A stretch of DNA of 64,000 nucleotides from Sphaerolaimus hirsutus. Taxonomy: Eukaryota; Nematoda; Chromadorea; Monhysterida; Sphaerolaimidae. The notes beneath the pieces were generated by a model, which saw only the letters and a list, made by a program, of their open reading frames with translations, made no database searches and was not told the origin of the DNA. Made by a program: the position numbers and the translations under genes. Of this stretch, positions 7,833 to 51,000 are shown in pieces. Where the stretch lies: NCBI GenBank assembly GCA_964036195.1, contig OZ038456.1, positions 9,796,001-9,860,000 on the forward strand, written 5' to 3'. Each line of letters begins with the position of its first letter. Position 1 is the first letter of the stretch.

Positions 7833-10095
7833 ATGCAAAGCATTGTGTTGAGAGCTCTACTAGTGTTGGCTATCGCACATGGCACAGCAGCGACGCAGCC
7901 AAGCCAATGTCCATGCTTTGGAGAAACTGATGTGATTGTCAAGTGACCAGTCTGATCAAAATGCCCTGTAAAACCACTAAATTACACACTATTTAAGCTG
8001 ATTTACATAACTAAAGTGATGCATTTTTATGCATATATTTGATCAACATTCTCATTTGTCATGAAATAACTTTAGAAACAATTTTAATCATTTTGCAGTT
8101 TTTTAAGTGGTAGTATTTAATGATGAGATAATAGGACTCTTTGATCAAACAAGGTCCTATGCTGGTGGCTGTTTCCTGACCACTGTGGATGGCATTGGGC
8201 TGGTCAACTGGGGACAGGCCAGGTGCCACTCCCAGACCATGTTAAGTGCCCTGTAAAGTGTCAAATGTCATGCAAAGTGTCAAAAGTCATGGAAAAAGCC
8301 CTGTGAAATGGCAAACGTACGTTGGACACTTTGCATGACATTTTACACGGCACTTTACAGGGTTTGGGAGTGCCCCCAGAGCAAACGAACATGGCTTGTC
8401 CCTGAGCTGCATGTGGCACTACACACTCGCCTCTGTGTACGACGTGCATCTCAGACTGGCCATTGCACACTCTATCAAGGAGGTAAGTGGAACATTGTAG
8501 TCCATTGTATGTAAATATAAACCATTGTATGAATGAGTATAACAACTATAATGTAAAAAGATTTGGAACCTTGCGCTGTGTATGCTTAAAATGTGTTATA
8601 TTAGTATTTTGAAAGATGTTTGAGATTTTTAGCATGCTGGAGTCTGTATTGCTGATAGGCAATATACATTGGGTAAAAGAGTTAAGTATTAAAATTTTAA
8701 TTCAATGATTTCGATAAACTGCTTTCCATGTTGATATTGGCTGTGTTCAACAAACTTTGAACATGGATGTTATGGTTGTTTATCATAACAGCAACTCAAT
8801 CTTTATGGAGTGAGATTGAGGGTAGCATTGGGGCACAATGGTAACAATTTGTGGTCTTGGCATGAGAACATAAACAATGGCAGGGAGATTGCAGCCAACA
8901 GCAGTCTACAGGTTTGTGCAGTTGTCTGCATCCACCACATGCACATTGTGACATTCACGCAGTTGATTTATTGCAGGATGACTTTGTTCTCTGGCCTGGC
9001 TCCGGCTTAACCCTATCACATGAAAACCATTCCAGTGCTGTTGTTGATCTGGATACTGGCCAACTGCACACTGCTGATGTCAGTGAGGAGCTCCCGGCAC
9101 TGTGGCAGGCACCACATATCATCCCATACCAGGTGTCTGTTCCACAAATGGAGAATTGAGAAGCAAAGTGGCAAATATGAACTGAAATGAGAAGTGAATT
9201 GAGAAGAAAAATGGCAAAAGCGTTTGAAAAATAAATTTCCCTTCGCGTGTGCCATTTTTCGTCTCAATTCACTTCTCACTTCTCATTTTACATTGCATTT
9301 GCCACTTTTCTTCTCACTTCTCAACTTGCGGAACTGGCCCCAGATGGAAGTTCACTGTACAAATGGCATACATGGGAGTGGAGTGCGTGGTGGGCATGAT
9401 GTCATATTGCCAATGGATAGGCATTGTACCAATACTTGTGGGAGACACTGCTTCAAATCAAACTGCAATTCATTCACATTGAAAGAAGCGAATGGTGGTG
9501 GGTACGAGTGCATTCTCCATGTGGGATATAGGTATGAATCTGCACTTTTTCATCCATTTGTTTTACCATACGTCATTTTACCATCAAATGAAAGCATTAA
9601 AATATCTGCAGTTCATCATGGGTCCATTTGGAGACAATGGCTGGGGCACAGTTTTGCTCAAAGCATGATTCATCATTTGAAGAAGGTAATGCTGGTATAA
9701 AGATATGTGCCCCGGATTTTTGAGATTTGTTGGGAACTGGGGTGTTGGGACCGGGACCAGGACTGGGACCGGGACCACCCCGAAATTTGGCTGAACCATC
9801 TACTGGGACGGTGGTACCATTTGAACCCTATGGATGACTGGACAACACATTCAAATACTTTGCAGCTTGCAGCATGCTGTCAGTTGGTGAGAATGCAGAG
9901 CTGAGGTATGCCAGTGGCTCAAATATCAAAGGGGGAAGATACAAGAGTGGTGAAGTGGCTACAATAGTTTGCCAGAACAATACTTATTTCCCAAGCAGTA
10001 AGCAGGACAAACTGCAAGTAGCATGCAAAAATGGAAAATGGCTATATTGGGAGCCCTTAGAGTATAGATGCATCACACTTAGCAGTCAGTTATAA
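7833..10095 (+). CDS. Secreted protein with C-terminal Sushi/CCP domain
   Basis: Exons inferred from splice sites and frame: 7833-about 7949 (signal peptide MQSIVLRALLVLAIAHGTAA), about 8128-8222, 8380-8482, 8792-8911, 8977-9132, 9344-9531, 9612-9685, 9866-10095 (stop TAA). From the third exon on, phases agree (2, 0, 0, 0, 2, 1) and exon lengths fit exactly. The exon 1/2 junction is not settled. The last exon has CCP spacing: C near its start, GGRYKSGEVATIVC, then VACKNGKWLYWEP and a final C. CCP modules are extracellular protein-binding units. The middle is Trp/His/Cys-rich and not recognised. Two introns (8223-8379 and 9133-9343) are complete TIR elements. The gene looks intact. Confidence 0.65.
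8223..8379 (+). mobile_element. Introner-like TIR element forming a whole intron (family 1)
   Basis: Starts GTGCCACTCCCAGACC directly after exon sequence GGCCAG and ends GGTTTGGGAGTGCCCCCAG directly before the next exon. The arms carry CCCTGTAAAGTGTC / ACACTTTACAGGG-type inverted text. Excision from GT to AG joins codons in phase 2, giving WGQAR-ANEHG with no stop. Length is 157 bp. Confidence 0.75.
9133..9343 (+). mobile_element. Introner-like TIR element forming a whole intron (family 2)
   Basis: Starts GTGTCTGTTCC next to exon end CATACCAG and ends GGAACTGGCCCCAG before ATGGAAG. The arms GAATTGAGAAG and CTTCTCA.. are inverted, so the intron is one long imperfect palindrome of 211 bp. Excision in phase 0 gives IIPYQ-MEVHC. 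The internal text is unrelated to family 1, but the end layout (GTG.C at one side, GCCCCAG at the other) is the same. Confidence 0.75.
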
Positions 10096-10136
10096 GTCAT
10101 TTTTTAAATACATAACTATTTTTCAGTCTGTTTGTA

Positions 10137-10690
10137 CATGGTGCAACAATTTAGACCAACACTTTAAATTTTGATACTGGGTTGATACTGGGTTGTCGGA
10201 TGAAAGTCAAAATTTAGGTAAACATTAACTATAGGAAAAGTTTCAATAAAATATGGCTGTGATTGCTTTACTTGTTCATGAGTTATTCATGCAAATGTGT
10301 AATTGTCACTTTACCACCACCTTGCTTTACAACCAATTACGCAAGCGCCTGGCAATTTCCTTATCGGAAAAGCAGATTAGTGGCATGCGTGCATGCATTT
10401 AGTGATTTAGGCATGCCACTGTGAAAAGAAAAACATTTTTTTTAAACTTTAAAAAAACAGTCCCTGTCCCGTAAAGTCGATCCAGTTTGAACCCTATCAC
10501 GAGGTGGTGGTAAACTGACAATTTTACGTTTGTGTGAATAAATTGTGAACGAGTGAAGCTATCGCAGCCATATTTTGTGGACACCTTTCCTATTTAGTTC
10601 TCAATGTTCACATAAAATTGGATTTTCATCCAACCACTCAGTGTCAAGTTATTTGAAATCTAAAGCATTGGTATACATTGCTGCACCCTG
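10137..10690. mobile_element. Long-TIR MITE, CAGGGTGCGGCAATTTAG family
   Basis: Degraded copy of 40471-41027. It has inverted arms of about 190 bp containing TGGCTGTGATTGC / GCAGCCATATTTT and ends CATGGTGCAACAATTTAG and GCTGCACCCTG. No gene inside. Confidence 0.6.
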
Positions 10691-10813
10691 CACTTCTATT
10701 GGTCATTTTTATGTGTTATAGAAAACAGAATGATAGAAATTGTTCTTTTGCATTCACAGAGGTATGGCTTTCACAAGTAAACTACTCTGTAAAGTGGCAG
10801 GAGTGGCAGCCAG

Positions 10814-11238
10814 GGGGCACTCCCAGACCCTGTAAAAGACCCTGTAAAGTGTAAAAGACCCTGTAAAGTGTAAAAGACCCTGTAAAATGTCATGTGTCAT
10901 GTAAGAGACCCTGTCAAATGTCATGTGTCATGTAAAAGACCCTGTTAAGTGTCAAATGTCATGTAAAAGACACTGTAAAGTGTCATGTGTATCCAAATCT
11001 TATTGCGTCATATCCAATTCTTATATTTTTTGTATCCAAATCTTATTTTTGACATAAGATTTGGATACAAAAGTATAAGATTTGGATACGATAAAATAAG
11101 ATTTGGATACACATGACACATTACAGGGCATTTTGCATGACATTTTACACTTGACAGGGTATTTTATGTGATACATGAAATTTTACAGGGTCTTTTACAC
11201 TTTACAGGGTTTTTTACAGGGTCTGGGAGATGCACCAG
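10814..11238. mobile_element. Family-1 element in reverse orientation
   Basis: Left end GGGGCACTCCCAGACCCTG, right end CAGGGTCTGGGAGATGCACCAG. The interior has tandem AAAGACCCTGTAAAGTGT and a central GTATCCAAATCT hairpin. The flanks (after an acceptor-like CACAG at about 10761, and 11239-11363) read open in one frame, but the left junction has GG instead of GT. It is therefore unclear whether this copy is spliced. Confidence 0.65.
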
Positions 11239-11469
11239 GTGGTGATGCTGAGGTAGTGCCACAACAAAGTTCAATGCAGCAAATAAATTTTGACCGTGCG
11301 TGTGAGAGTACATCAGCTCGACACAGAGGCTATGCGTACTTCATTATACGCAAGTTTTTTTCATGACAGATTTGACATGTCTACAGAATGTATGTAGGAA
11401 AAGCAATTGCCATTGTACAACAATTGCTGCAAAAATATTTTTTTTGTGGCGATTGTACTTTTATTTTAC

Positions 11470-11470
11470 C

Positions 11471-11513
<43 letters not shown>

Positions 11514-11582
11514 CAATATATAAAAATAAAAAAAATATAATATATAATAATATATAATATTTTATATAGGCATACAAAATAT

Positions 11583-11613
<31 letters not shown>

Positions 11614-11720
11614 ATATTTTTTATGCCTATATAAAAATGCCTATATACATGTTGCATGCAGTTTATATATATATAAAGATATATACACATACATAAATGC
11701 ATACACAAACTGGTGGAATA
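11470..11720. repeat. TA microsatellite and AT-palindromes
   Basis: Runs of TATATA (about 11473-11510 and 11583-11605) with flanking AT-only inverted repeats. The interval 11240-11830 has no other recognisable feature. Confidence 0.8.
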
Positions 11721-11834
11721 TATAAATGAGAAAATCACTTAATTGTAAATATCTTACAAATCCCACATGCCACCTGTTAGGCTCTCATCTTGTGTGAGGG
11801 TGCCCCCAAGTCTTTACTATATATACCCTGGGGG

Positions 11835-13770
11835 TAGGGTGTCAAATTTCCGTTTCCGTTTTCCGTTTCCGCCTTTCCGCAGGAGAATTTTTTACCTTTT
11901 CGTTTTCCGTTTTCCGGCAGCCGAAAAATTTTTACCTTTCCGTTTTCCGTTTTCCAGCAGCCAGAAAATTTTTACCTTTCCGTTTTCCGTTTTCCGGCAG
12001 CTGAAAATTTTTTACCTTTCCGTTTCCGTTTTTCCGGCCCATTTTTCCGTTTTCCGGCTGAAAAATTTTTACCTTTCCGTTTCCGTTTTACCAGGCAATT
12101 TTTCCATTTTCAGGCTCGATTTTCAGTTTTCTGGCATTTTTCCATTGTTTTTCCAATCTGTATTTATCTTCAATTGGCTCATCCCATTGTGTTGTTTTTG
12201 TCTCTTGGAGCAGCATTGACAACTGGGATTTCAGGGTCAGTGAAACAGGTGCTGTGAACCCAATTGGGTCATATGCTGACACCAATAATTTATTCAAGTT
12301 TCATCTGGTTGGTGTTGTGATGCTGTCAATTTGCAATTTTGGTGTTGATATTGCCAGCATGTCCGTTTGGTGATTTTATTTCATGCCCATTACTGCGACA
12401 ATTTTATTCACCTTTTACTCCTGTCGTTTTCTGCTATTTCATTTATGACTGATCTGGAGTTTGACAGCCATTCCCTCATGTTCATAGAACATTGGTTAAA
12501 TAAAGCTTTGACTTTGTAATATAGTTCTAAAGCTTCAACTTCATTCGTGACACTCATGATGAAGTTATCGATGTAAATGTTGTTTATTATCATCGCCAAC
12601 TGGTTTTGTTCCCCTTCATTTTCTTCATATTCATTCATGTTGTTTATTGTCACATTTGAATGGTATTTTATGACTGCTCCCAAAATTGCTGGGCTGCAGA
12701 AAAGTCCAAACAGTATGCGTTTAAAACGAAGTACTATTAAGTTATTTTCAGTTACTGGTTTTGAGGCATCTTTCAGCCAGAAAAATTGTGTGTAGTCTCT
12801 AGCTCAGTCATGCAATCCTATTTGCAAAAATGCCTTTTCAATATCGGCAATTAATGCTAGATTGCCTGCCCTGAACCTCAGGAGTAGGCCCAGTGCTAAT
12901 GGTGTTGTAATTGGTCCTCTAAAAAGGCACTCGTTGAAACTGGGCTTTGCCCGGCGTGATTACTGGCTGGTGTGGCAGGTAATGAATCCCCTTGTTGTCT
13001 GTTTTGTCGTCACAGATCTCAATTATTCCCTTTCTAGTTGGTCGTCCAAAACTTTCCGGTATTGTTCGAATAAGTTTGGATCTTTGTTGAATCTTCTTAT
13101 CAGTGATTTAAACCACACCAAGGCTTCTGCTTTTCCCGTGGGCAGGTCACTGATACTCTCTTTATACGGCCAGTCAATATAGTATTGTTTGTTGTTGTTG
13201 TGAGTTTTATGCTATTTATTATCATCTCCTCTGCAATGTTGTCATCAATTGCATAGGGGTCATCAGTGATTCCCACTGCTTCTAGACTGTGAAATTGTTG
13301 TAGTGTTTCCTTTCCTATGGCCACTATGGCTACTTTTTGATGATTTTTTGTTGGTTCAGTTAAGCTTGAACTACAAGTTGAACGTGAAGTTACAGGCATG
13401 ATCCATAGTTGCAGAATGTACAGCTACCACAATCAAAGCCAAACAGGCAAACCTGCATGCAGGTTTTCCTTCTGCAAATTTGTCTATTACCATGCTAATT
13501 CCACTTTATTTTTTTCCGTTTCCGTGAAAATTTTGCTTTCCGTTTTCCGTTTTCCGGCATTTCATTTTTTCGTTTTCCGTTTTCTGGCCAACAATTTTTT
13601 TTTACCTTTCCGTTTTCCGTTTTCCGCTGAGTGAAATTTTTTTACCTTTCCGTTTTCCGTTTTCCGGCAGAATTTTTTTTTTTACCTTTCCGTTTTCCGT
13701 TTTCCGTAAAGTGAAAAAATTTTACCTTTCCGTTTTCCGTTTTCCGTAAAAAAATTTTTTTGACACCCTA
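11835..13770. mobile_element. hAT-like TAGGGTGTCAA element with BEL/Pao insert (copy A)
   Basis: The termini TAGGGTGTCAAATTTCC and TTTTTTTGACACCCTA are flanked by a perfect 8-bp TSD CCTGGGGG (11827-11834 and 13771-13778). The subterminal arms are arrays of TTTCCGTTTTCCGTTTTCCG. The centre (about 12090-13430) is a BEL/Pao pol piece on the minus strand. Same structure as 49041-51013, in opposite orientation. Confidence 0.8.
12088..13430 (-). pseudogene. BEL/Pao-type pol fragment carried by hAT-like copy A
   Basis: Minus-strand pieces homologous to 49342-50760, including IYIDNFIMSVTNEVEAL, KALFNQCSMNMREWL and AYDPIGFTAPVSL. The RT active-site box reads YIDN where YxDD is expected. A one-base loss near 13045 (AAAGGG against AAAAGGG-type text) breaks the frame here, a different lesion from the other copy. 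Confidence 0.75.
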
Positions 13771-13951
13771 CCTGGGGGGCACCCCCCTCAGGCCACCCTC
13801 AGGTCAGAAAATAAATTTTTTCGCATTTTTTCTGGAAAATATAAATGAGAATCCATACAAATTTTTGTTCCCGATGAAATTTAAATTTTAAATAATTTTT
13901 TTCTGGAAATATGAGACCAAAAAGTTTTTTTGACATTGGTAGATTGTAGGT

Positions 13952-14359
13952 TTGTGCAACTTTTCTACCCCCTCAGAACCCCCAGAAGCCCCACACAATG
14001 ATGGCGTTGTTGATCAAACCCAAAAATTTTTTGGGACAAAACATGGGTTTGTGAAAGTGCAAGATCCTCTGTTCATAGCTGTCTATGGAGCACATCTTGC
14101 CCAGATTTGGCTTCCTCAGTGTCAGGGGCAACAAATGGCCTCTCCTGAGCCTCGCTGTTGCACCCTGTATTTGTTTAAGGGCTGCGGTGAAAATGCCACC
14201 ATACAAAGAATTCACTCCCGTGACAGCGCGTCCGACGCCTGCAATGTCAGGATGCTGATGATGAAATGTTTGTGCCCATTGAATGTGGGCACTAACTACA
14301 TATGTGTTAAAAACGTATGGGGGACAATGGGCAATATGCCCTGTGGGGAGTGTAAATGA
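13952..14359 (+). CDS. Possible cysteine-rich terminal exon
   Basis: Open to TGA at 14357-14359. The last 85 residues are Cys-rich (PRCCTLYLFKGCGE, MMKCLCPLNVG, NMPCGECK) and the base composition is more balanced than the flanks. Acceptor-like CCCCTCAG at about 13970 and CCTCAG at about 14119. I recognise no domain. It could be the 3' exon of a secreted protein or a decayed piece. 14360-14858 shows no gene. Confidence 0.35.
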   Translation: MCNFSTPSEPPEAPHNDGVVDQTQKFFGTKHGFVKVQDPLFIAVYGAHLAQIWLPQCQGQQMASPEPRCCTLYLFKGCGENATIQRIHSRDSASDACNVRMLMMKCLCPLNVGTNYICVKNVWGTMGNMPCGECK

Positions 14360-14858
14360 ACTGGATAGATGACATGGTCATATTCAAAAAGCAAGAAAAT
14401 GTATTTAAATGTCATTCATCTGTATCACACCGATGCATGACATTCAAAATCAATGCATACATATCTAAGAAGCCCATGTCCAGCCCATTTTGGGGCCGTT
14501 TTTTCTGTGGGGGGCCATGGGGGTGGTGAAATACACCCCCCAACAAATTCACCATCGAAAATTGTCATCATGGGTGATTCTCAACGTTTTTCTCTCAAAA
14601 ATTTGCAAACACAAGAGTATCCAGAGCTTGTGTCGGCAGCGCACCAAAAAATTGGTGCGCACTTTCCCGCAGTGGTATTTTGTGTGGAATTTAGGTAATT
14701 CTCATTTATATTTTCCACAAAAAAATATTTATCAATCAGTGACGGAAGAATGGGGGGTCGTCGGGGGTGCGAATTGGCAATAATATAAATAAATGTTGGG
14801 GGCACCCCCATCCCCCACAACAAATGGCAGAAAAATTTGGCTGTAGGTTGTTCCATGG

Positions 14859-15487
14859 GGCCAGATTTAATACTCCCTACAGATTTGCAGGGTAGGGCGT
14901 ACGCCCGACAGATTTTTTAAAGTTTCGCCGCATCGACGCACATGCACCGAGAGCAAGGCGGTTCGTAAAATATACGAAACCATCCCTTAAGGTTGCCGAT
15001 ATTGCAATATGACGTATATCACTTCGATTTTGGCCCGGAAATCACGATTTCGTCATTTCTCGGCCGTCTGCCAATTCGTTTTTTATTTTATTTTGTCGGG
15101 CGGGTTACTCGCATAGGTCACGCTTTTGTGTAGTCAGGTGGTCACTTTTTTAGTGTTCACTGTCTGCAACCGAAACCATGAGGGCAGCGACAAGAAAGAA
15201 ATGCATGCACGAGCGTACAAAAGCGCGACTTATGCGAGTAACCTGCCCGACAAAATAAAATAAAAAACGAATTGGCAGACGGCCACGAAATGACGAAATC
15301 GTGATTTCCGAGCCAAAATCGAAGCGATAACCGTCAGATTGCAATATCGGCGACGTTAAGGGATAGTTTAGTGTATTTTATGAACCGCCTTGCTCTCGGT
15401 GCATGTGCGTTGATGCGGCTGAACTTTGAAAAATCTATCGGGCGTACGCCCTACCCTACAAATCTGTAGGGAGTATTAAATCTGGCC
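14859..15487. mobile_element. Near-perfect long palindrome MITE
   Basis: Arms of about 250-290 bp starting GGCCAGATTTAATACTCCC and ending in its inverse. They include GGGCGTACGCCC and CCGATATTGCAATATGACG. A 5-bp repeat CATGG flanks it (14854-14858 and 15488-15492). A broken half copy lies at about 36944-37720. Confidence 0.75.
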
Positions 15488-16028
15488 CATGGGAATATCT
15501 GGAAAAAGGACATATCAAATTTCTCATTCAAATGTTCCACCATTTTACATACATATAACTAAGTGTAGGAAGAACACTCAAAAATGTAATACTCATATCA
15601 GATATTGTAGACTGAAATTTTTACTGGCAAATTAACACAGTGATAAAAAGACAAGCTCCTTAACATTTAAAAAGATTAGCCGGTAAATAGAATAGACAAA
15701 AGGTAAATAGAAACAAGCCCACAATAAAATTCTAATAAATTCACCTAATAATTCAGCTAATAATAAACATGCTGGATATTGGAGAAAGCATTGTTGTAAA
15801 AATACTGGTATTTTTGGAAGGCATAAGCATAAGCATACCATATGTCCTCAAAATATGCAAAATTTCATTGACCTGCTTGACAATCAGATGCTTCAACTGT
15901 TCAATGTCCATCATTTTGGGCAGCTGTGGACTGTAGACTTTGTCCTTCACATAGCCCCAATGAAGAAGTTGATTCACTGTGCTTCACATTCAGACATAAA
16001 AATCTTGTGATATGAAACCATTCCCTTA

Positions 16029-16554
16029 CCGTATTTCTCCAATCAAAGCACCCCTGGTGCTTTACAAAATTGGTGCACTTTTCGAAGTACTTTTCAAGTG
16101 TCGTTTATAGCACCCTGGTGCAATGCAAATCACAGGGTGTTATACTATGTTTTGTTATATATTGATCTTGTGTGATCTTTTGTTCTTTTGTGATCGTGAT
16201 GGTAAGGTTGAATTGGCAATATTCCAACGCCCCACAAATATCGGAACACAAGCGCTTTCAACACTTCAAGTTGCTCTGGCTAATTAAACCAGAAGCGTTT
16301 GATGTAGTCGCAGCATGCGATTAAATAGTCATATGTGTGCTAAAACAATGCCGCGCACCATGTAAAAAAATTATAATGCAACAGATGGTCTTCCGACTTT
16401 TGCTCTCTGCAATATTATTTACGCTACACAGATGATCACCAAATTTTTTTCAGATGAGAAGTAAAGCACCCGGGTGCTTTACATGGAACATTTTGCACAG
16501 CATAGCACCCTGGGAGCTTTGAACGGGGGGGGTGCTTTGATTGGAGAAATACGG
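16029..16554. mobile_element. CCGTATTT superfamily MITE, AAGCACCC subtype
   Basis: TA-flanked ends CCGTATTTCTCCAATCAAAG and CTTTGATTGGAGAAATACGG. The word AGCACCCTGGTGC recurs inside. The preceding 15490-16026 has no recognised gene. Confidence 0.7.
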
Positions 16555-16723
16555 TAGCACAACAAATGGGGTACATTTATCTACTGCCATGCCAAATTTG
16601 AGCACTCTTCATTTCAACTTTACGGGTTGGGAGGAGATTGAAACCATGCACCTGACGTGCGCCACCTGGTACATATAACTGATTTTTACACTACAAAAAT
16701 ATCCCTTTACATTGGATGTGTAG

Positions 16724-19700
16724 CTACGGATGGATATGTATACCGGATCAATGTTGATGACCACAGCGTGACCAGGCTGTCAGATATACCAACGGAGTAT
16801 AGAAGGCATTATTCAGGTGCCATACCCAGACCCTGTAAAAGACCCTGTAAAGTGTAAAAGACCCTGTAAAAAGTCATGTGTCATGTAAAAGACCCTGTGA
16901 TGTGTCATGTGTATTCAAATATTATTTTATCATATCCAAATCTTATGTTTTGGTATCCAAATCCATAACCAAAATTTGGATACCAAAACATAAGATTTGG
17001 ATATGATAAAATAAGATTTGGATACACAACATGACACCTTACAGGGACCTTCACATGACACATGACTTTTTACAGGGTCTTTTACACTTAACAGGGTCTT
17101 TTACACTTTACAGGGTCTTTTACAGGGTCTGGGAGTGCCCCCAGGTGGGACTCAAATACCTGGTGGAAGAGTACTGTTCTGTGGTGGACAAATGGATTTT
17201 ACTTATGTTGGTGTTGTGACCTGCTTCGTGTATGTTTTGTTTGATGTTGAATCTTTTCTGTACAATCACTTTATATACACTAGATTTTCAGATACTGGCT
17301 GGAAACTGGTGCAGTTGCATGGGCACCAAGTCTTCTTGGATCAGCGCGCTGGTGGCACGCACTGGCATATTATCATGGAAGGATATACTCAATTGGAGGG
17401 AGTACTGGTGCGATAGACAACGGTTAGTGTATAGAAATGCTATGAGTTTTTCAGTGAGCCGGTGAGGATTACCGTATTTCTCCCAGTAAACCACCTGGGT
17501 GTTATACAAAACCAAGGCACTTTTCAGTGACCTCTTTTAAAAACTTGTATAATGCCTGGATATTCAATCATTCGGGAGGGGGGTGTTCTGCATGGGAAAT
17601 TTTGGCTTTCATATTTACATAAATATTTTTTGTTTCCAGCATGCAGCGAATTCAATGAAAAATGTGCATAATGTGGAATAACAATTCATCCCGCAATGCA
17701 CAAAATTCAAAAAGTTCAAATGTAGTGGACGTTCATTACTGTGCAGCTCGATTTATCATGTAAAAATTCTAACTCTGCTTTAAGTTTTTGAAACTAAGCA
17801 TAGCGCTATAAAGCTGTGTAACGCCCTGGGCGTTGTGCACGGGGGGGGCGCAGTTTACATGGAAAAATATGGTAGTGATGTGGCATTTAAAGGGAATATC
17901 GTGCTATGGGTGCCATTCAAAACAACAATAACAGGTGCTAAGAGCTTAAAAGGGATATCTGACACCAATGTCCATGCAACAAATGATGTGACTTGCATTC
18001 TAAAAATCTCTGGGAGATTTATATTTAAAAAGTCTCAGAAAATATCATTAATAGCACATTTTATTATATCTATAGATTTTATTATATTTTCTGAGATTTT
18101 TCAGAGATATTTAATTATATTTCTTATTTCTGTGGGAGAAAATATAAAAAATCGCTCTGAAGTCACTTTTTGAAAACTTTTGCGACAATTTTCGTACTTT
18201 TTGCCCATTATCACCTTCAAATCTACCACAATCCATGCTTTTTGCACTTATTTTTGGCTATACATGTGCTACAAATTGGTGACGGCTGCCCTACACCCGA
18301 GTTGGACTTCCTGACATTCACTTCCCGGCAGTTGAATTACATTTTGTCTTGTCGGGAGCCTGACGTGTAGGGTAGGGCAACTGTAAAAAATTTGTTGGGA
18401 GGCTGCCCGATTTCGGGTGCATTGCGTGCACGTAGGGCGCATTTCGCAAGAACTAAATGTGGCCCCAGGACAATCCAATGCAAAATGATGTGATGCGAGA
18501 TGACAAAAACTTATGCAACAGACCAATATTGCTGACAATTGCAAAGGTCACAAGGTAGCGTTTATTTAAATGTCTTCACAGGTGTGACATCACTGGATCA
18601 AAATTTGCAAGCATGGCGTACTGAACCTTCCCTCAAACAAGTAAGGTTGCATATCCAGGCTGCTGCAGAAGTGTACCATGGTAAACTCTTTGTCTGTGGT
18701 TCAGAGTACCGGAACGATTGTGAAATGTTGGTTTGATAGCAGATTTGTACAAATACAGGTATTTTTGGAAAATGTGTCATGTGAGCATCTTTTCATAAGG
18801 TTGAGTGTTTATTTTCAATCATTTTTAAAATACCGTATTTGCTTGAATAGTTCCCCCCTTGAATAATTCCCCCCTTGAATAATCCCCTTCTTAAATGGGT
18901 GAGGAAAAAATTCCCCCCTCGAATAATCCCCCCACACATGAACTAAAAATGGAATGTAGGTAAATACATGCACATTTGATAAATGAATTTAAAGCATTTG
19001 ATAAATGTGTTGTTTTGTTAATGAAGCATATTTTGCAAAATGAATTTATAGATATACCCCAGCGACATTACACCTTACAATGAGATATACCATATCCCAT
19101 CTGAATAAAATAAAAAATAAATTAAAAATTTCATTATATTTGTCAAACCAATTTGATAAATATTCTGAAAAAAATTTATGTTTGTTCTTTCATTCAGATG
19201 GGATATGGTTGATTTCATTGTAAGGTGTAATGTCGCTGGAGTATACATGCTTTAAAACTTTGATGAAATAATAATTCCCCCCCTTGAATAATTCCCCCCT
19301 CAAATAATCCCCCCTCAAAAAAGTCTGACGAAATAGTAATTCCCCAGGAGGGATTATTCAAGCAGATACTGTACTTGAATGTAAATAAAACAAAGAGGTA
19401 AAAAACAGTAATAGTCAGCAGAGTGCACTGAGTGAGTTTCATTTATCATCATTTAGCATTTCATGAGTTGATGGAATAAATTCATACAATAAATAAAGTC
19501 CATGTTTTCCTGAAACTTCTGGGGGAAAATTATCCCCCCCCCCCTTGAATAACTCCCCCTCAGAAACTCCGATGAAAGATAACTCCACTGGTGCCAGTCC
19601 AAGCCCTGTAAAGTGTAAAGTAAAGTGTCAAATATAAAGTCAAATGCAAAGTAATGTGTCAAATGTCATGCAAAGTTTCAAATGTAAAGTAAAATGTTAT

Positions 19701-28700: not shown

Positions 28701-29519
28701 TTTGTATTTTCATACAAGCCATCTCGACGCATCGCGGAACACAACTAAATACCATCCACAACAGAACCACAAATGATTGTGCACTTAACAACAACAACAC
28801 TGGTAGTCAGAAAAATTTGTGCCCAAACAATTAACTCCCCTCTCGACTTACCCCCCCCCCCCGCCCCTCGAAATACCCCCCTCTAAATTTTCACTCTGAA
28901 ACAAAAAAACCCCAGGGGTATTTTGAGGACATACAGTAAATAGGCTAACATGAGCAAAATCACTTTTGGGAAACAGTCCTGGAAAGTTGTTGACAGTTCG
29001 TTGCATCATCTCCAAGTTTTGAATGTGAGCCATGTATAAATTGATGTCTGTTTTCCAATTGTGTTGCTCTTCTGACAATAAAGTGTTTCATCTGATTTGT
29101 GAGAAATTTAAAAACATTCATACTACTCACACCCTCAGAAATACGGTCAATAATCCTTTGTATGAGCAGAGATTTTGTAGAGAAATCTTATAAGTTTATA
29201 TTTACTGAAATTTTTGAATGCTGATTGTAATCCATAAAAGAAAGGTGTAAAACATCAAAAATTATCCCATTTTGACACAGTTTCAACATGCCACAGGTTT
29301 GACACAATCTCATGGGAAATCGTACCTGGGTTAATGCCAAGGAGCATGTGCTGTGGTGCACTGACTACAATTGACGACTCACTGTACTATGTTGGGGGAA
29401 ACTATGGCGTCGACACAGCAGAAATTGCCAAATACAACATGACCACTGGCACGTGGGCAGATGTCCCTGGGCGGCTCGCCCTTGCAGTGCGCAGGGGCAG
29501 TATTGTGAATGTTTGGTGA
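16724..29519 (+). CDS. Kelch-repeat protein gene (several exons, 5' end unclear)
   Basis: Exons 16724-16816, 17145-17229, 17292-17422, 18582-18726, 29297-29519 (TGA). Lengths and phases (1, 2, 1, 2) join exactly. The kelch signatures in order are GYVYRINVDDHSVTRL, IPGGRVLFCGG, WHALAYYHGRIYSIGG, AAEVYHGKLFVCG and DDSLYYVGG with KYNMTTGTWADVPG. Each kelch unit is one blade of a beta-propeller that usually binds protein partners. Only about four blades are visible, so more exons are expected upstream. A stretch at about 16630-16670 reading WEEIETMHLTCATW is kelch-like but does not join in phase. Intron 1 is an introner-like element, intron 2 is 62 nt, and intron 4 is 10.6 kb holding a Gypsy element. 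Confidence 0.65.
16817..17144 (+). mobile_element. Introner-like TIR element forming a whole kelch intron (family 1)
   Basis: Starts GTGCCATACCCAGACCCTG after TATTCAG and ends GTCTGGGAGTGCCCCCAG before GTGGGACTC. The arms are tandem AAAGACCCTGTAAAGTG and the centre is a GTATCCAAATCT hairpin. Excision in phase 1 rebuilds YRRHYSG-GTQIPGG, a normal kelch strand. Length is 328 bp. No clear TSD apart from shared CAGGTG at the two junctions. Confidence 0.8.
17473..17872. mobile_element. CCGTATTT superfamily MITE inside kelch intron
   Basis: Starts CCGTATTTCTCCCAGTAAAC and ends TTTACATGGAAAAATATGG. Related to 16029-16554. The following 17880-18540 is AT-rich intron without recognised genes. Confidence 0.55.
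18835..19373. mobile_element. CCGTATTT superfamily MITE, CTTGAATAATTCCCCC subtype
   Basis: The start CCGTATTTGCTTGAATAG and end ATTATTCAAGCAGATACTG are inverted. CTTGAATAATTCCCCCC recurs inside at both ends, and the central part has TATACC..GGGATATGG inverted text. Confidence 0.65.
19590..20170. mobile_element. Family-1 fragment joined to hAT-like copy E
   Basis: 19590-19719 begins GGTGCCAGTCCAAGCCCTG and stops in the hairpin. At 19720 GGGTGTCAAATTTCC starts a degraded TAGGGTGTCAA-family arm with TTTTCCGGC text and the CATGCATGCAGGTTTTC segment found in copy A. The far terminus is missing. Confidence 0.5.
20167..20915 (-). pseudogene. Gypsy RT/RNase H fragment, minus strand
   Basis: Reading leftward from 20915: an intact RT box YIDDIL, then ACLQWANLKIQPAKC, EELKYLGHQISQKGISF and, in the RNase H part, DASGIGLGAVLSQYG. 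Stop codons interrupt it (for example before 20781). It lies next to hAT-like arm E as BEL/Pao lies inside copies A and B, and abuts the plus-strand Gypsy copy head to head. Confidence 0.8.
20902..22151 (+). pseudogene. Gypsy-type gag, plus-strand copy
   Basis: Homologous to the gag at 1-1755. It is broken by TGA at 21244-21246 where the other copy has Trp (FAEW), by a TAA near 21493, and by a frameshift before 21537. The distal part keeps DKFIVANFRNAMK and the Cys/His stretch NPWCPHLNHAGHHVSEC. The 5' LTR is absent, since the element is truncated at the 20.91-kb junction. Confidence 0.85.
22480..22900 (+). pseudogene. Gypsy aspartic protease remnant
   Basis: The catalytic triplet context VVLDTGCT is present (DTG at 22575-22583) but is followed at once by TGA (22590-22592). 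Downstream text is frame-broken. It lies between gag and RT as in Ty3/Gypsy elements. Confidence 0.65.
23535..24287 (+). pseudogene. Gypsy reverse transcriptase, active site altered
   Basis: 250 codons uninterrupted: an IVPKGTDDWRFCIDF block, FTAIDIRHGYYNVPL (first catalytic Asp), MPFGTCNSGETFQRLM and CMYIDSILCCSD. The usual YxDD box reads YIDS (24099-24110), so the second Asp of the pair is lost and the enzyme should be inactive. Followed by TTLKYLGHQVSAEGIS. Confidence 0.9.
24333..25032 (+). pseudogene. Gypsy RNase H and connection region
   Basis: RFLGKCVYYSHF, then YLETDASITGLGAVLSQYG (RNase H first Asp), TFSAAALEALCIAWSIR (Glu) and VITDNSGIAQVF (Asp). Broken by stops at about 24643 and 24825. 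Confidence 0.85.
25200..26023 (+). pseudogene. Gypsy integrase, internally deleted
   Basis: The zinc-binding part is suggested by CADCAACM. Then the sequence jumps to PQLIITDQGTEYVNENF. The segment expected to carry the first catalytic Asp is missing between about 25400 and 25425. A C-terminal part with PKFTGPLEVVNVVGPS remains to 26023. Confidence 0.75.
26132..27316 (+). pseudogene. Third ORF of the Gypsy element, unrecognised
   Basis: Frame-broken region between integrase and the 3' LTR. In order: a signal-like start MHFAFFYMIIVCVTVV, an acidic Thr/Pro-rich part, a Cys cluster CENCHCTSRVAMIFCNNQC, a helical stretch ECDRLHQELAESN (about 26700), a second Cys/His cluster CKLHTHEHPKYCVVC, and an Arg-rich tail ending near 27316. 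This is the position where env or accessory ORFs occur, but no fusion-type envelope feature is visible. Function unknown. Confidence 0.5.
27340..27560 (+). mobile_element. 3' LTR of the plus-strand Gypsy element
   Basis: GATGTTCCCACTTGGGAC, TCGCCGACATTCCCAATAAA and AATAAACCCATCAACAC correspond to the LTR piece at 1866-2000. AATAAA may serve as polyadenylation signal. Left boundary approximate. Confidence 0.55.
27560..28430 (-). other. Coding-like region of unknown origin
   Basis: Balanced base composition and open minus-strand frames at 28372-27872 and 27887-27560, the latter ending in a frame reading NHVQNLFEKAIQEMC. A GAGTGAATGGGTGAATATTT repeat at the frame change suggests a replication-slippage frameshift. 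A hydrophobic stretch LFLFAIATVCVAAG is present. It may be another retroelement gag or a captured gene. Not identified. Confidence 0.3.
28831..28936. mobile_element. Small C-run MITE remnant
   Basis: CCCCTCTCGACTTACCCCCC .. CCAGGGGTATTTTGAGGACATAC resembles one end of the CCTCGAAATACCCC subtype. Confidence 0.45.
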
Positions 29520-35936: not shown

Positions 35937-36281
35937 GGGGCACTCCCAGACCCTGTAAAATACCCTGTAAAGTGTCAAATGTCATGCAAAGTGTAAAAAG
36001 CCCTGTAAAATGCCCTGTAAAAGACCCTGTAAAGTGTCAAATGTCATGCAAAGTGTAAAAGACCCTGTAAAATGCCCTGTAAAAGACCCTGTAAAGTGTC
36101 AAATGTCATGCAATGTGTAAAAGACCCTGTAAAATGCCCTGTAAAAGACCCTGTAAAGTGTCATGTGTAGTGATGTAAAAAGCGCCAATGCGGGTTACAG
36201 GGTCTTTTACATAACACATGACATTTTACAGGGTTTTTGACACTTTACAGGGTCTTTTACAGGGTCTGGGAGTGGCACCAG
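35937..36281. mobile_element. Family-1 element, reverse orientation
   Basis: Starts GGGGCACTCCCAGACCCTG and ends CAGGGTCTGGGAGTGGCACC. The interior has tandem AAAATGCCCTGTAAAAGACC. TCAAGGGG occurs at both junctions (35932-35939 and 36283-36290), a candidate 8-bp TSD. No coding exon is seen at its flanks. Confidence 0.7.
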
Positions 36282-48065: not shown

Positions 48066-51000
48066 CTGAAACCAGCCCACTGCGATGTCATTGGTGGCGG
48101 CGTCTATAGGTGGTTTCGTCAGTCCTCCACCCAGTGCGTCCGTGAATATAGCTTCAGTGACGCATGCCTGCGTGTAAATGGTGCTATCAAACTTTTTGTT
48201 GTTTTTCAATATAAGCTTTCAACAAATCAGTCAACAAATCACGAAAATCTGTTAATAATTTAACAGATTTGAACATTCGGTATTACCTAATTACTATGTT
48301 ACCCAGAAAGAATCTGCTATTTACTGTCATAGGCGTATCTTCGGCCAATACCGTATTTCTTCTAATAGAACGGCATACCTCCAATAGAACGGCAGGTTTG
48401 GCTTTTTTTTGCGCTCACGAAAATAATAGAACGGCAGCCTCCAATTGAACGACACCTCGAATAGGACGGCAGGTAGATATCACGTTGGAAGGGTGGCGGA
48501 ACACACACACAAAAATAGAAATTGGTGGCGAGAACGTTCAAGGCCTTTAAAATATTTATATTACCTAAATAACAAATTGATGCGCTGACATTAAATGTTG
48601 CTCAAGTTTCATAAAAATATAACTGTTTTCAAATGAAAAATGTGTGAAAAAGTTGCTGAAAAAAATGCAACGGCATCCTCCAATAGAACGGCAGATAAAA
48701 AAAGTTGACGACAAAAATAGAACGGCGCTCTTCTTTTAGAAAAAATACTGTACCAATTTTCGACGTGAGTTTCGAAAATTTCGAAAAAGTGTTTCATATC
48801 GATGTTCAAATTTTCGATGTCTCAATTTGTTAAACAAAAGTATTCCATGCTTTATATGTGTAAATACCCACGTTGAAGACAAAAATCGCGCGATACCACC
48901 CCACCACTCACTCTCGCCAGCAAGCTGCCCACCAACCCCCCAGCCAGCTGCGACACGATGTAGGCGGCCGCGTAGGCAACGTGCATGTTGCCCGACACAG
49001 TCACGCCCACCGTCACTGCCGGGTTCAAGTGCGCCCCGCTTAGGGTGTCAAAAAAAATTTTTTACGGAAAACGGAAAACGGAAAGGTAAAATTTTTTCAC
49101 TTTACGGAAAACGGAAAACGGAAAGGTAAAAAAAAAATTTCTGCCGGAAAACGGAAAACGGAAAGGTAAAAAAACTTCACTCAGCGGAAAACGGAAAACG
49201 GAAAGGTAAAAAAAAATTGTCGGCCGGAAAACGGAAAACGGAAAAATGAAATGCCGGAAAACGGAAAACGGAAAGCAAAATTTTCACGGAAACGGAAAAA
49301 AATAAAGTGAAATTAGCACGGTAATAGACAAATTTGCAGAAGGAAAACCTGCATGCAGGTTTGCCTGTTTGGCTTTGATTGTGGTAGCTGTACATTCTGC
49401 AACTATGGATCATGCCTGTAACTTCACTTGTAGTTCAAGCTTAACTGAACCAACAAAAAATCATCAAAAAGTAGCCATAGTGGCCATAGGAAAGGAAACA
49501 CTAAGACAATTTCACAGTCTAGAAGCAGTGGGAATCACTGATGACCCCTATGCAATTGATGACAACATTGCAGAGGAGATGATAATAAATAGCATAAAAT
49601 TCAACAACAACAACAAACAATACTATATTGACTGGCCATATGAAGACAGTATCAGTGACCTGAAGACAGGAAAAGCAGAAGCCTTGGTGCAGTTTAAATC
49701 ACTGATAAGAAGATTCAACAAAGATCCAAACTTATTCGAACAATACCAGAAAGTTTTGGATGACCAACTAGAAAAATGAATAATTGAGATCTGTGATGAC
49801 AAAACAGACAACAAGGGGATTCATTACCTGCCACACCAGCCAGTAATCACACCGGGCAAATCGACATCATGCAGAATCGTGTACAATGGGTCGTCAGGTA
49901 AGCCCAGTTTCAACGAGTGCCTTTTTAGAGGACCAATTACAACACCATTAGCACTGGGCCTACTCCTGAGGTTCAGGGCGGGCAATCTAGCATTCATTGC
50001 CGATATTGAAAAGGCATTTTTGCAAATAGGATTGCATGACCAAGCTAGAGACTACACACGATTTTTCTGGCTGAAAGATGCCTCAAAACCAGTAACTGAA
50101 AATAACTTAATAGTACTTCTTTTTAAACGCGTACTGTTTGGACTTGTCTGCAGCCCAGCAATTTTGGGAGCAGTCATAAAATACCATTTAAATGTGACAA
50201 TAAACAACATGAATGAATATGAAGAAAATGAAGGGGAACAAAACCAGTTGGCGATGATAATAAACAACATTTACATTGATAACTTCATCATGAGTGTCAC
50301 GAATGAAGTTGAAGCTTTAGAACTATATTACAAAGTCAAAGCTTTATTTAACCAATGTTCTATGAACATGAGGGAATGGCTGTCAAACTCCAGATCAGTC
50401 ATGAATGAAATAGCAGAAAATGACAGGAGTCCAAAGGTGAATAAAATTGTCGCAGTAATGGGCATGAAATAAAATCACCGAACGGACATGCTGGCAATAT
50501 CAACACCAAAATTGCAAATTGACAGCATCACAACACCAACCAGACAAAACTTGAATAAATTATTGGTGTCAGCATATGACCCAATTGGGTTCACAGCACC
50601 TGTTTCACTGACCCTGAAATCCCAGTTGTCAATGCTGCTCCAAGAGACAAAAACAACACAATGGGATGAGCCAATTGAAGATAAATACAGATTTGAAAAA
50701 CAATGGAAAAATGCCAGAAAACTGAAAATTGAGCCTGAAAATGGAAAAATGGCCTGGTAAAACGGAAACGGAAAGGTAAAAATTTTTCAGCCGGAAAACG
50801 GAAAAATGGGCCGGAAAAACGGAAACGGAAAGGTAAAAAATTTTCAGCTGCCGGAAAACGGAAAACGGAAAGGTAAAAATTTTTCGGCTGCCGGAAAACG
50901 GAAAACGGAAAGGTAAAAATTTTTCGGCGGCCGGAAAACGGAAAACGGAAAGGTAAAAAATTTTCCTGCGGAAAGGCGGAAACGGAAAACGGAAACGGAA

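Follow-up and report, generated by a model that had tools for sequence, protein, structure and literature searches.

An inverted-repeat element that duplicates CWG target sites and very probably makes up an intron of a kelch gene in Sphaerolaimus hirsutus

Introners are MITE-like elements that create introns, with splice sites carried at or near their ends. In the window analysed here (the whole 64,000-nucleotide stretch of DNA), a predicted intron of a kelch gene at 16817–17144 is filled by an inverted-repeat element. Was this intron born when a transposon entered a coding exon? The answer bears on the long-standing question of intron birth. The kelch intron is very probably a non-autonomous MITE from a large family, present in many copies, that targets CWG for insertion with duplication of these three bases, and that constitutes an introner family.

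The predicted intron spans 328 bp (1 mod 3), starts with GTGCCATACCCAGACCCTG and ends with CAGGGTCTGGGAGTGCCCCCAG. Three pairs of inverted arms were found: 16816–16899/17059–17142 (79% complementary), 16834–16910/17029–17105 (92%) and 16908–16962/16974–17028 (96%). RNA folding of 16790–17170 gave a single hairpin of −225.8 kcal/mol, compared to −90.0 ± 5.7 for 100 shuffled sequences. Left unspliced, the element places stops in all three frames; when it is removed exactly, the flanking halves join in phase 1 and one frame reads ..VYRINVDDHSVTRLSDIPTEYRRHYSGGTQIPGGRVLFCGGQ.. across the junction. The sequence-only reading had described a terminal-inverted-repeat element with GT first and CCCCAG last, and exon frames that join in phase 1 as kelch text. 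The inverted arms, both ends and the open joined frame were all confirmed. The same reading took the transposon to be exactly one intron, and while these boundaries hold, the element itself stops at 17141, and the three bases that complete the intron are the right CAG of a target-site duplication. The features of the region are:

16701–16816, + strand: upstream kelch exon half (5’ limit provisional; candidate acceptor TAG at 16721–16723)
16814–16816, + strand: left CAG copy of the target-site duplication, at the end of the upstream exon half (from the sequence and from the CWG duplication on 90 genome copies)
16817–17141, + strand: element proper, a MITE with long inverted repeats, running from its donor end GTGCC (16817) to its other end GTGCCCC (17141)
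17142–17144, + strand: right CAG copy of the duplication, which is also the 3’ CAG of the intron (from the sequence and genome copies)
16817–17144, + strand: predicted spliceosomal intron, phase 1, consisting of the element and the right CAG (from the open joined frame)
17145–17229, + strand: downstream kelch exon half; a GTATGT donor comes next
17292–17422, + strand: next kelch exon (open frame, Pfam)
18582–18736, + strand: last kelch exon, with the terminal stop codon at 18736

The remaining introns of the kelch gene have GT and CAG ends. The joined 161-aa piece matched the Kelch profiles PF25210 (5.9e-7) and PF13964 (0.0031), both below the curated cut-offs, and a homologue search with it gave no relative in a collection without relatives of the host genome. 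A further kelch-like exon at 29238–29519 (Kelch_6, 1.5e-5) perhaps belongs to a second kelch gene. Another repeat family lies near or inside the kelch gene at 16020–16560 and 17470–17880. Its ends resemble CCGTATTTCTCC, and CACCC or GGGTG words occur within it. At 15060–15300, a stretch of ca. 60 bases (GTCGGGCGGGTTACTCGCATA) and its inverted copy ca. 100 bases apart have a MITE-like arrangement. The regions 49306–50760 and 12408–13423, in opposite orientations, appear from their reading frames to be pieces of one BEL/Pao-like retroelement.

BLAST and a search for the element ends found three more full copies of the family in the window and several fragments. These copies, and a different element in one of the same host genes, are:

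8223–8379, + strand: second family copy, 157 bp with the right CAG counted in; its exact removal leaves NWGQAR-ANEHGLSL joined in phase, with a GTAAGT donor downstream
9133–9343, + strand: different inverted-repeat element, CAG GTGTC .. GGCCC CAG, which would fill another intron of the host gene of 8223–8379
10814–11238, + strand: reverse-oriented family copy, with GG on the donor side and CCAG on both sides
35938–36281, + strand: reverse-oriented family copy, coding context not seen

The host gene of the second copy extends over ca. 8140–9530. Its protein had no Pfam match and no match in the protein collection, and a Pfam search of 7901–16720 gave no match. Open frames on both sides suggest that 9133–9343 is an intron as well; with its GTGTC/GGGGCC ends and CAG on both sides, it likely represents another introner family, one that chooses its target by the same rule. 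Exact removal of the copy at 10814–11238 yields the open frame WQEWQPGGDAE, but would require GG as donor. A duplication of 8 bp, suspected at first from 35938–36281, was not confirmed by the other copies.

A genome search for the element, proposed by the sequence-only reading, was carried out in part and found many copies, among them sense copies that split conserved domains. The genome sequence searched has 348,482,957 bases in 762 contigs. In it, the 23-base donor end is present in exact form 1,126 times, and the right end TTTACAGGGTCTGGGAGTGCCCC followed by CAG 390 times. With up to 3 mismatches, a tolerance at which the other, similar end of the element is expected to match too, the 26-base donor end including CAG had 13,111 matches, versus 0 for the reversed control, so the kelch element is not a chance structure.

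On contig 1, 98 of 100 listed donor ends were retrieved (CAG-flanked ends after the first 30 are loci L014–L039). Ends closer than 300 bases to the left edge of their locus were skipped and identical 40-base left flanks were counted once, which left 90 distinct ends. The three bases preceding the element were CAG in 38, CTG in 35, TAG in 5, CCG in 4, CGG in 3, CAT in 2, ATG in 2 and GCC in 1. Thus 73 of the 90 ends follow CWG, compared to a background of 4.65% before GTG in the fetched loci (p = 2e-80), and 17 have another left flank. When the partner end of each copy was located by fuzzy search, the left and right flanks were CAG/CAG in 24, CTG/CTG in 17, CTG/CAG in 9 and CAG/CTG in 1 (association p = 4e-6); the other 39 ends have a different flank on one or both sides, or their partner end was not found. 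The association between flanks, together with the excess of CWG over background, shows that the family duplicates a 3-bp CWG target site. Among the exact donor ends listed for contigs 1 and 2, 77 follow CAG and 81 follow CTG, so insertion is about equally frequent in both senses of the target. The whole genome has 432 exact CTG-flanked donor ends.

The coding context of the 51 CWG-paired loci was examined by translating the joined flanks on both strands, in up to two frames per strand. Each side of a joined peptide had to have 20 or more open codons and was trimmed to 45; a locus with no such frame contributed none. The GT strand yielded 62 joined peptides with 10 Pfam matches (E ≤ 1e-3), while the opposite strand yielded 53 peptides with none. 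All 10 Pfam-supported insertions are thus in one orientation (p = 0.002):

Carn_acyltransf, locus L014: CAG/CAG, 2e-16
COMM, locus L020: CAG/CAG, 6.6e-5
CHGN, locus L065: CTG/CAG, 2.7e-13
Abhydro_lipase, locus L085: CTG/CAG, 2e-27
7tm_1, locus L098: CTG/CAG, 1.1e-8, match downstream of the join
Cullin, 134 bp copy, locus L112: CTG/CAG, Pfam match
Trypsin, locus L120: CTG/CAG, 7.9e-13
GT11, locus L087: CTG/CTG, 1.2e-4 (21.9 bits; curated cut-off 23.9)
Bestrophin, locus L094: CTG/CTG, 3.2e-16
Cullin, 220 bp copy, locus L112: CTG/CTG, Pfam match

In 8 of the 10 the Pfam match runs across the join, and the second Cullin match starts at it. By class, Pfam support was found for 2 of 24 CAG/CAG, 5 of 9 CTG/CAG and 3 of 17 CTG/CTG loci; for the other 41 of the 51 paired insertions, Pfam gave no support for a coding context. 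The presence of CHGN, bestrophin and a rhodopsin-type receptor suggests the gene set of an animal. Ten further sense peptides submitted singly, all but two of them from the 62, had no Pfam match. Cullin was matched in two peptides (best 1.1e-9), and one cullin gene is split twice by the family. Over the 8 kb of this gene that were read, the Pfam cullin match lies in L112 (2.4e-16) and none in the upstream locus L121, where we take certain stretches, recognised by eye, to be cullin exons. No other damage was seen by eye in these 8 kb.

The copy at 10814–11238 and a study of copepod introns (PMC5714493) suggested that reverse copies might form GG–AG introns, an idea left unsupported by the lack of Pfam matches on the opposite strand. 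By a weak codon score, four loci (L056, L059, L080, L114) resemble coding sequence on the opposite strand. This score was set aside as evidence, being partly trained on the same loci, kelch included, and uninformative for 8223–8379. One of the four, L059, is a CTG/CAG copy for which opposite-strand coding comes from the weak codon score only, and its donor side there would be GA.

The family thus has the signature of transposition, with both terminal inverted repeats and a target-site duplication, and it supplies similar predicted introns to unrelated genes, with the likeness reaching both splice boundaries as judged from the joined frames. The sequence-only reading had held that the kelch intron is an introner born by insertion into an exon, and the inverted repeats, the 3-bp CWG duplication and the recurrent one-orientation splitting of domains in the genome copies support it.

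In the mechanism we propose, the element would have entered the kelch gene after the gene was already in place, at a coding-strand CAG and with its GTGCC end first, giving ..CAG/GTGCC....GTGCCCC CAG/.., where slashes mark the exon junctions. The terminal inverted repeat would provide the GT donor, the left CAG would be the exon side of that donor, and the right CAG of the duplication would serve as acceptor. Excision of the element together with the right CAG would return the mRNA exactly as it was before the insertion. By folding on itself, the long self-complementary body may bring the splice sites together. A copy in reverse orientation would have no GT at the donor side, and such copies were not seen in Pfam-recognisable coding sequence. 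This mechanism would account for the kelch intron, for 8223–8379, for the CAG/CAG loci and, if the right copy has changed, for the CTG/CAG loci.

The CTG/CTG copies in coding exons depart from this simple GT–AG model. In the sense orientation they split bestrophin, cullin and GT11 domains, though CTG is no AG. In the bestrophin copy, a GAG 9 bases upstream of the exon offers an alternative acceptor in frame; in the cullin and GT11 copies this GAG is absent, and the AG closest to the exon lies 19 bases upstream of it, out of frame with the GTGCC donor. The AG of the terminal repeat (GGGAG/TGCCCC, adding 9 in-frame bases) was therefore rejected as a general acceptor for CTG copies: possible in bestrophin, it is missing from cullin and GT11. 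Nor is it commoner in CTG/CTG copies (13 of 17) than in CAG/CAG (20 of 24) or CTG/CAG (5 of 9) copies. Either TG acts as acceptor in the CTG/CTG copies, or another splice site is in use, or these are damaged alleles.

Among discordant pairs, CTG/CAG outnumbers CAG/CTG by 9 to 1 (p = 0.02). Though the numbers are small, this excess suggests that the right copy tends toward CAG, as expected under selection on the acceptor. We tentatively raise the possibility, in our view a doubtful one, that any sense insertion at CWG makes an intron, with only the middle base of the target determining the acceptor: CAG would give GT–AG at once, and CTG would give a working GT–TG intron whose right copy later changes from CTG to CAG, leaving the protein unaltered. 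This reading is supported by the sense CTG/CTG domain cases, two of three of which have no AG within 19 nt of the exon, by the 9:1 discordance, and by the five of nine CTG/CAG loci with Pfam support as coding. TG has been described as an alternative acceptor in 36 human genes (PMC2374985). If the reading is true, introns can be born with a non-canonical acceptor and then be repaired to AG. The family would be a natural experiment on whether new introns must have AG from the outset, or may start with TG and gain AG by a single base change.

A different history for the kelch intron would be that of an old intron, present before the element, into which a MITE later inserted and whose length it took over. 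Other MITE-like repeats do occur in and between the genes of the window, but insertion within an intron would leave intron sequence beyond the element. Instead, in independent genes both ends of the element abut the exon junction, each insertion has its own CWG duplication and removal restores the frame, and we consider the old-intron history very improbable. It is also highly unlikely that these are plain exon insertions that break genes, with the joined frames simply the old gene read across the insert. In its favour, CTG/CTG copies with no AG near the end split the cullin and GT11 genes. Harmful insertions would, however, be expected in both orientations, rather than 10 of 10 in one among those with Pfam support; CTG/CAG pairs exceed CAG/CTG pairs 9 to 1, and the cullin gene was free of other damage where it was inspected.

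Spread as RNA by reverse splicing, which has been suggested for introner-like elements of fungi, would explain why exact intron positions are occupied. The terminal inverted repeats and the target duplication favour DNA transposition, however, as do the near-equal frequencies of CTG- and CAG-flanked exact ends on the first two contigs and the existence of copies of both flank kinds without a long open joined frame (e.g. L061 and L072). We regard spread as RNA as extremely improbable. Insertion of a DNA element into a coding exon is the reading we prefer for the kelch intron.

No DDE transposase sharing the ends of the family (GTGCCACTCCCAGACCCTG) was found; one abundant DDE_Tnp_4 family was examined. 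The DDE_Tnp_4 profile has 163 matches in the genome, and most of those listed agree in profile span and stop pattern, apparently as one main family. Two copies of it (L122 and L123) share 99.8% identity across 4,412 bp; the right end that they have in common is unlike the terminal inverted repeat of the introner family, so this DDE_Tnp_4 family was rejected as the autonomous partner. Both copies end near GTGTGCGCGGGGCC. In most of the listed matches the DDE_Tnp_4 domain is stretched by ca. 190 bp with several TGA, an intron-like pattern, and many listed matches have near-identical scores.

Among known transposons, the NuwaI group of PHIS elements (PIF/Harbinger-related), reported from animals only, has 5’-CWG-3’ target-site duplications and so shares the 3-bp CWG duplication with the window family (PMC4482050). 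NuwaI inverted repeats usually begin with GGG, whereas the window family has GTGCC at one end and GGGGC at the other. The sections of PMC4482050 available to us make no mention of intron creation by NuwaI.

Introners have been characterised as families of similar introns, with similarity up to the splice sites and many with terminal inverted repeats and/or target-site duplications; copepods are among their hosts (Gozashti et al. 2022, PMC9860276). In that survey, Symbiodinium introners have a 4-bp duplication and inverted repeats, carry the 3’ splice site and take the 5’ site from the duplication. Chrysochromulina introners have a 4-bp duplication and no inverted repeats, and carry the 5’ site while the 3’ site comes from the duplication, the same division of donor and acceptor as in the window family (PMC9860276). 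Compared with the introners surveyed there, the window family combines inverted repeats with a 3-bp CWG duplication, a donor that is carried and an acceptor that would come from the duplication (PMC9860276).

Non-canonical splice sites are also known from other systems. GT–TG splice sites occur in the introner classes IE-B and IE-D of Micromonas (PMC3879977), an alga; these classes have 25 and 6 members of very variable length and are a precedent for a TG acceptor, which in the window family would derive from a CTG duplication, in an animal-like genome. In the copepod Eurytemora affinis, introns have been gained explosively, among them recent ones with GA or GG as donor (PMC5714493). There it is the donor that is relaxed, while in the window family it is the acceptor that is in question, and in contrast to the GG-donor introns of E. 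affinis, 0 of 53 peptides from reverse copies had Pfam support. In the literature searched, mostly as titles and abstracts, no introner with a CWG duplication was described. Sharing of splice sites with a target-site duplication is already known; to the sequence-only reading, the present analysis adds the predicted source of each splice site and the CTG-flanked class. Copy by copy, this family tells apart the splice site that the transposon would supply and the one that the target would supply, the latter in canonical (CAG) and non-canonical (CTG) versions.
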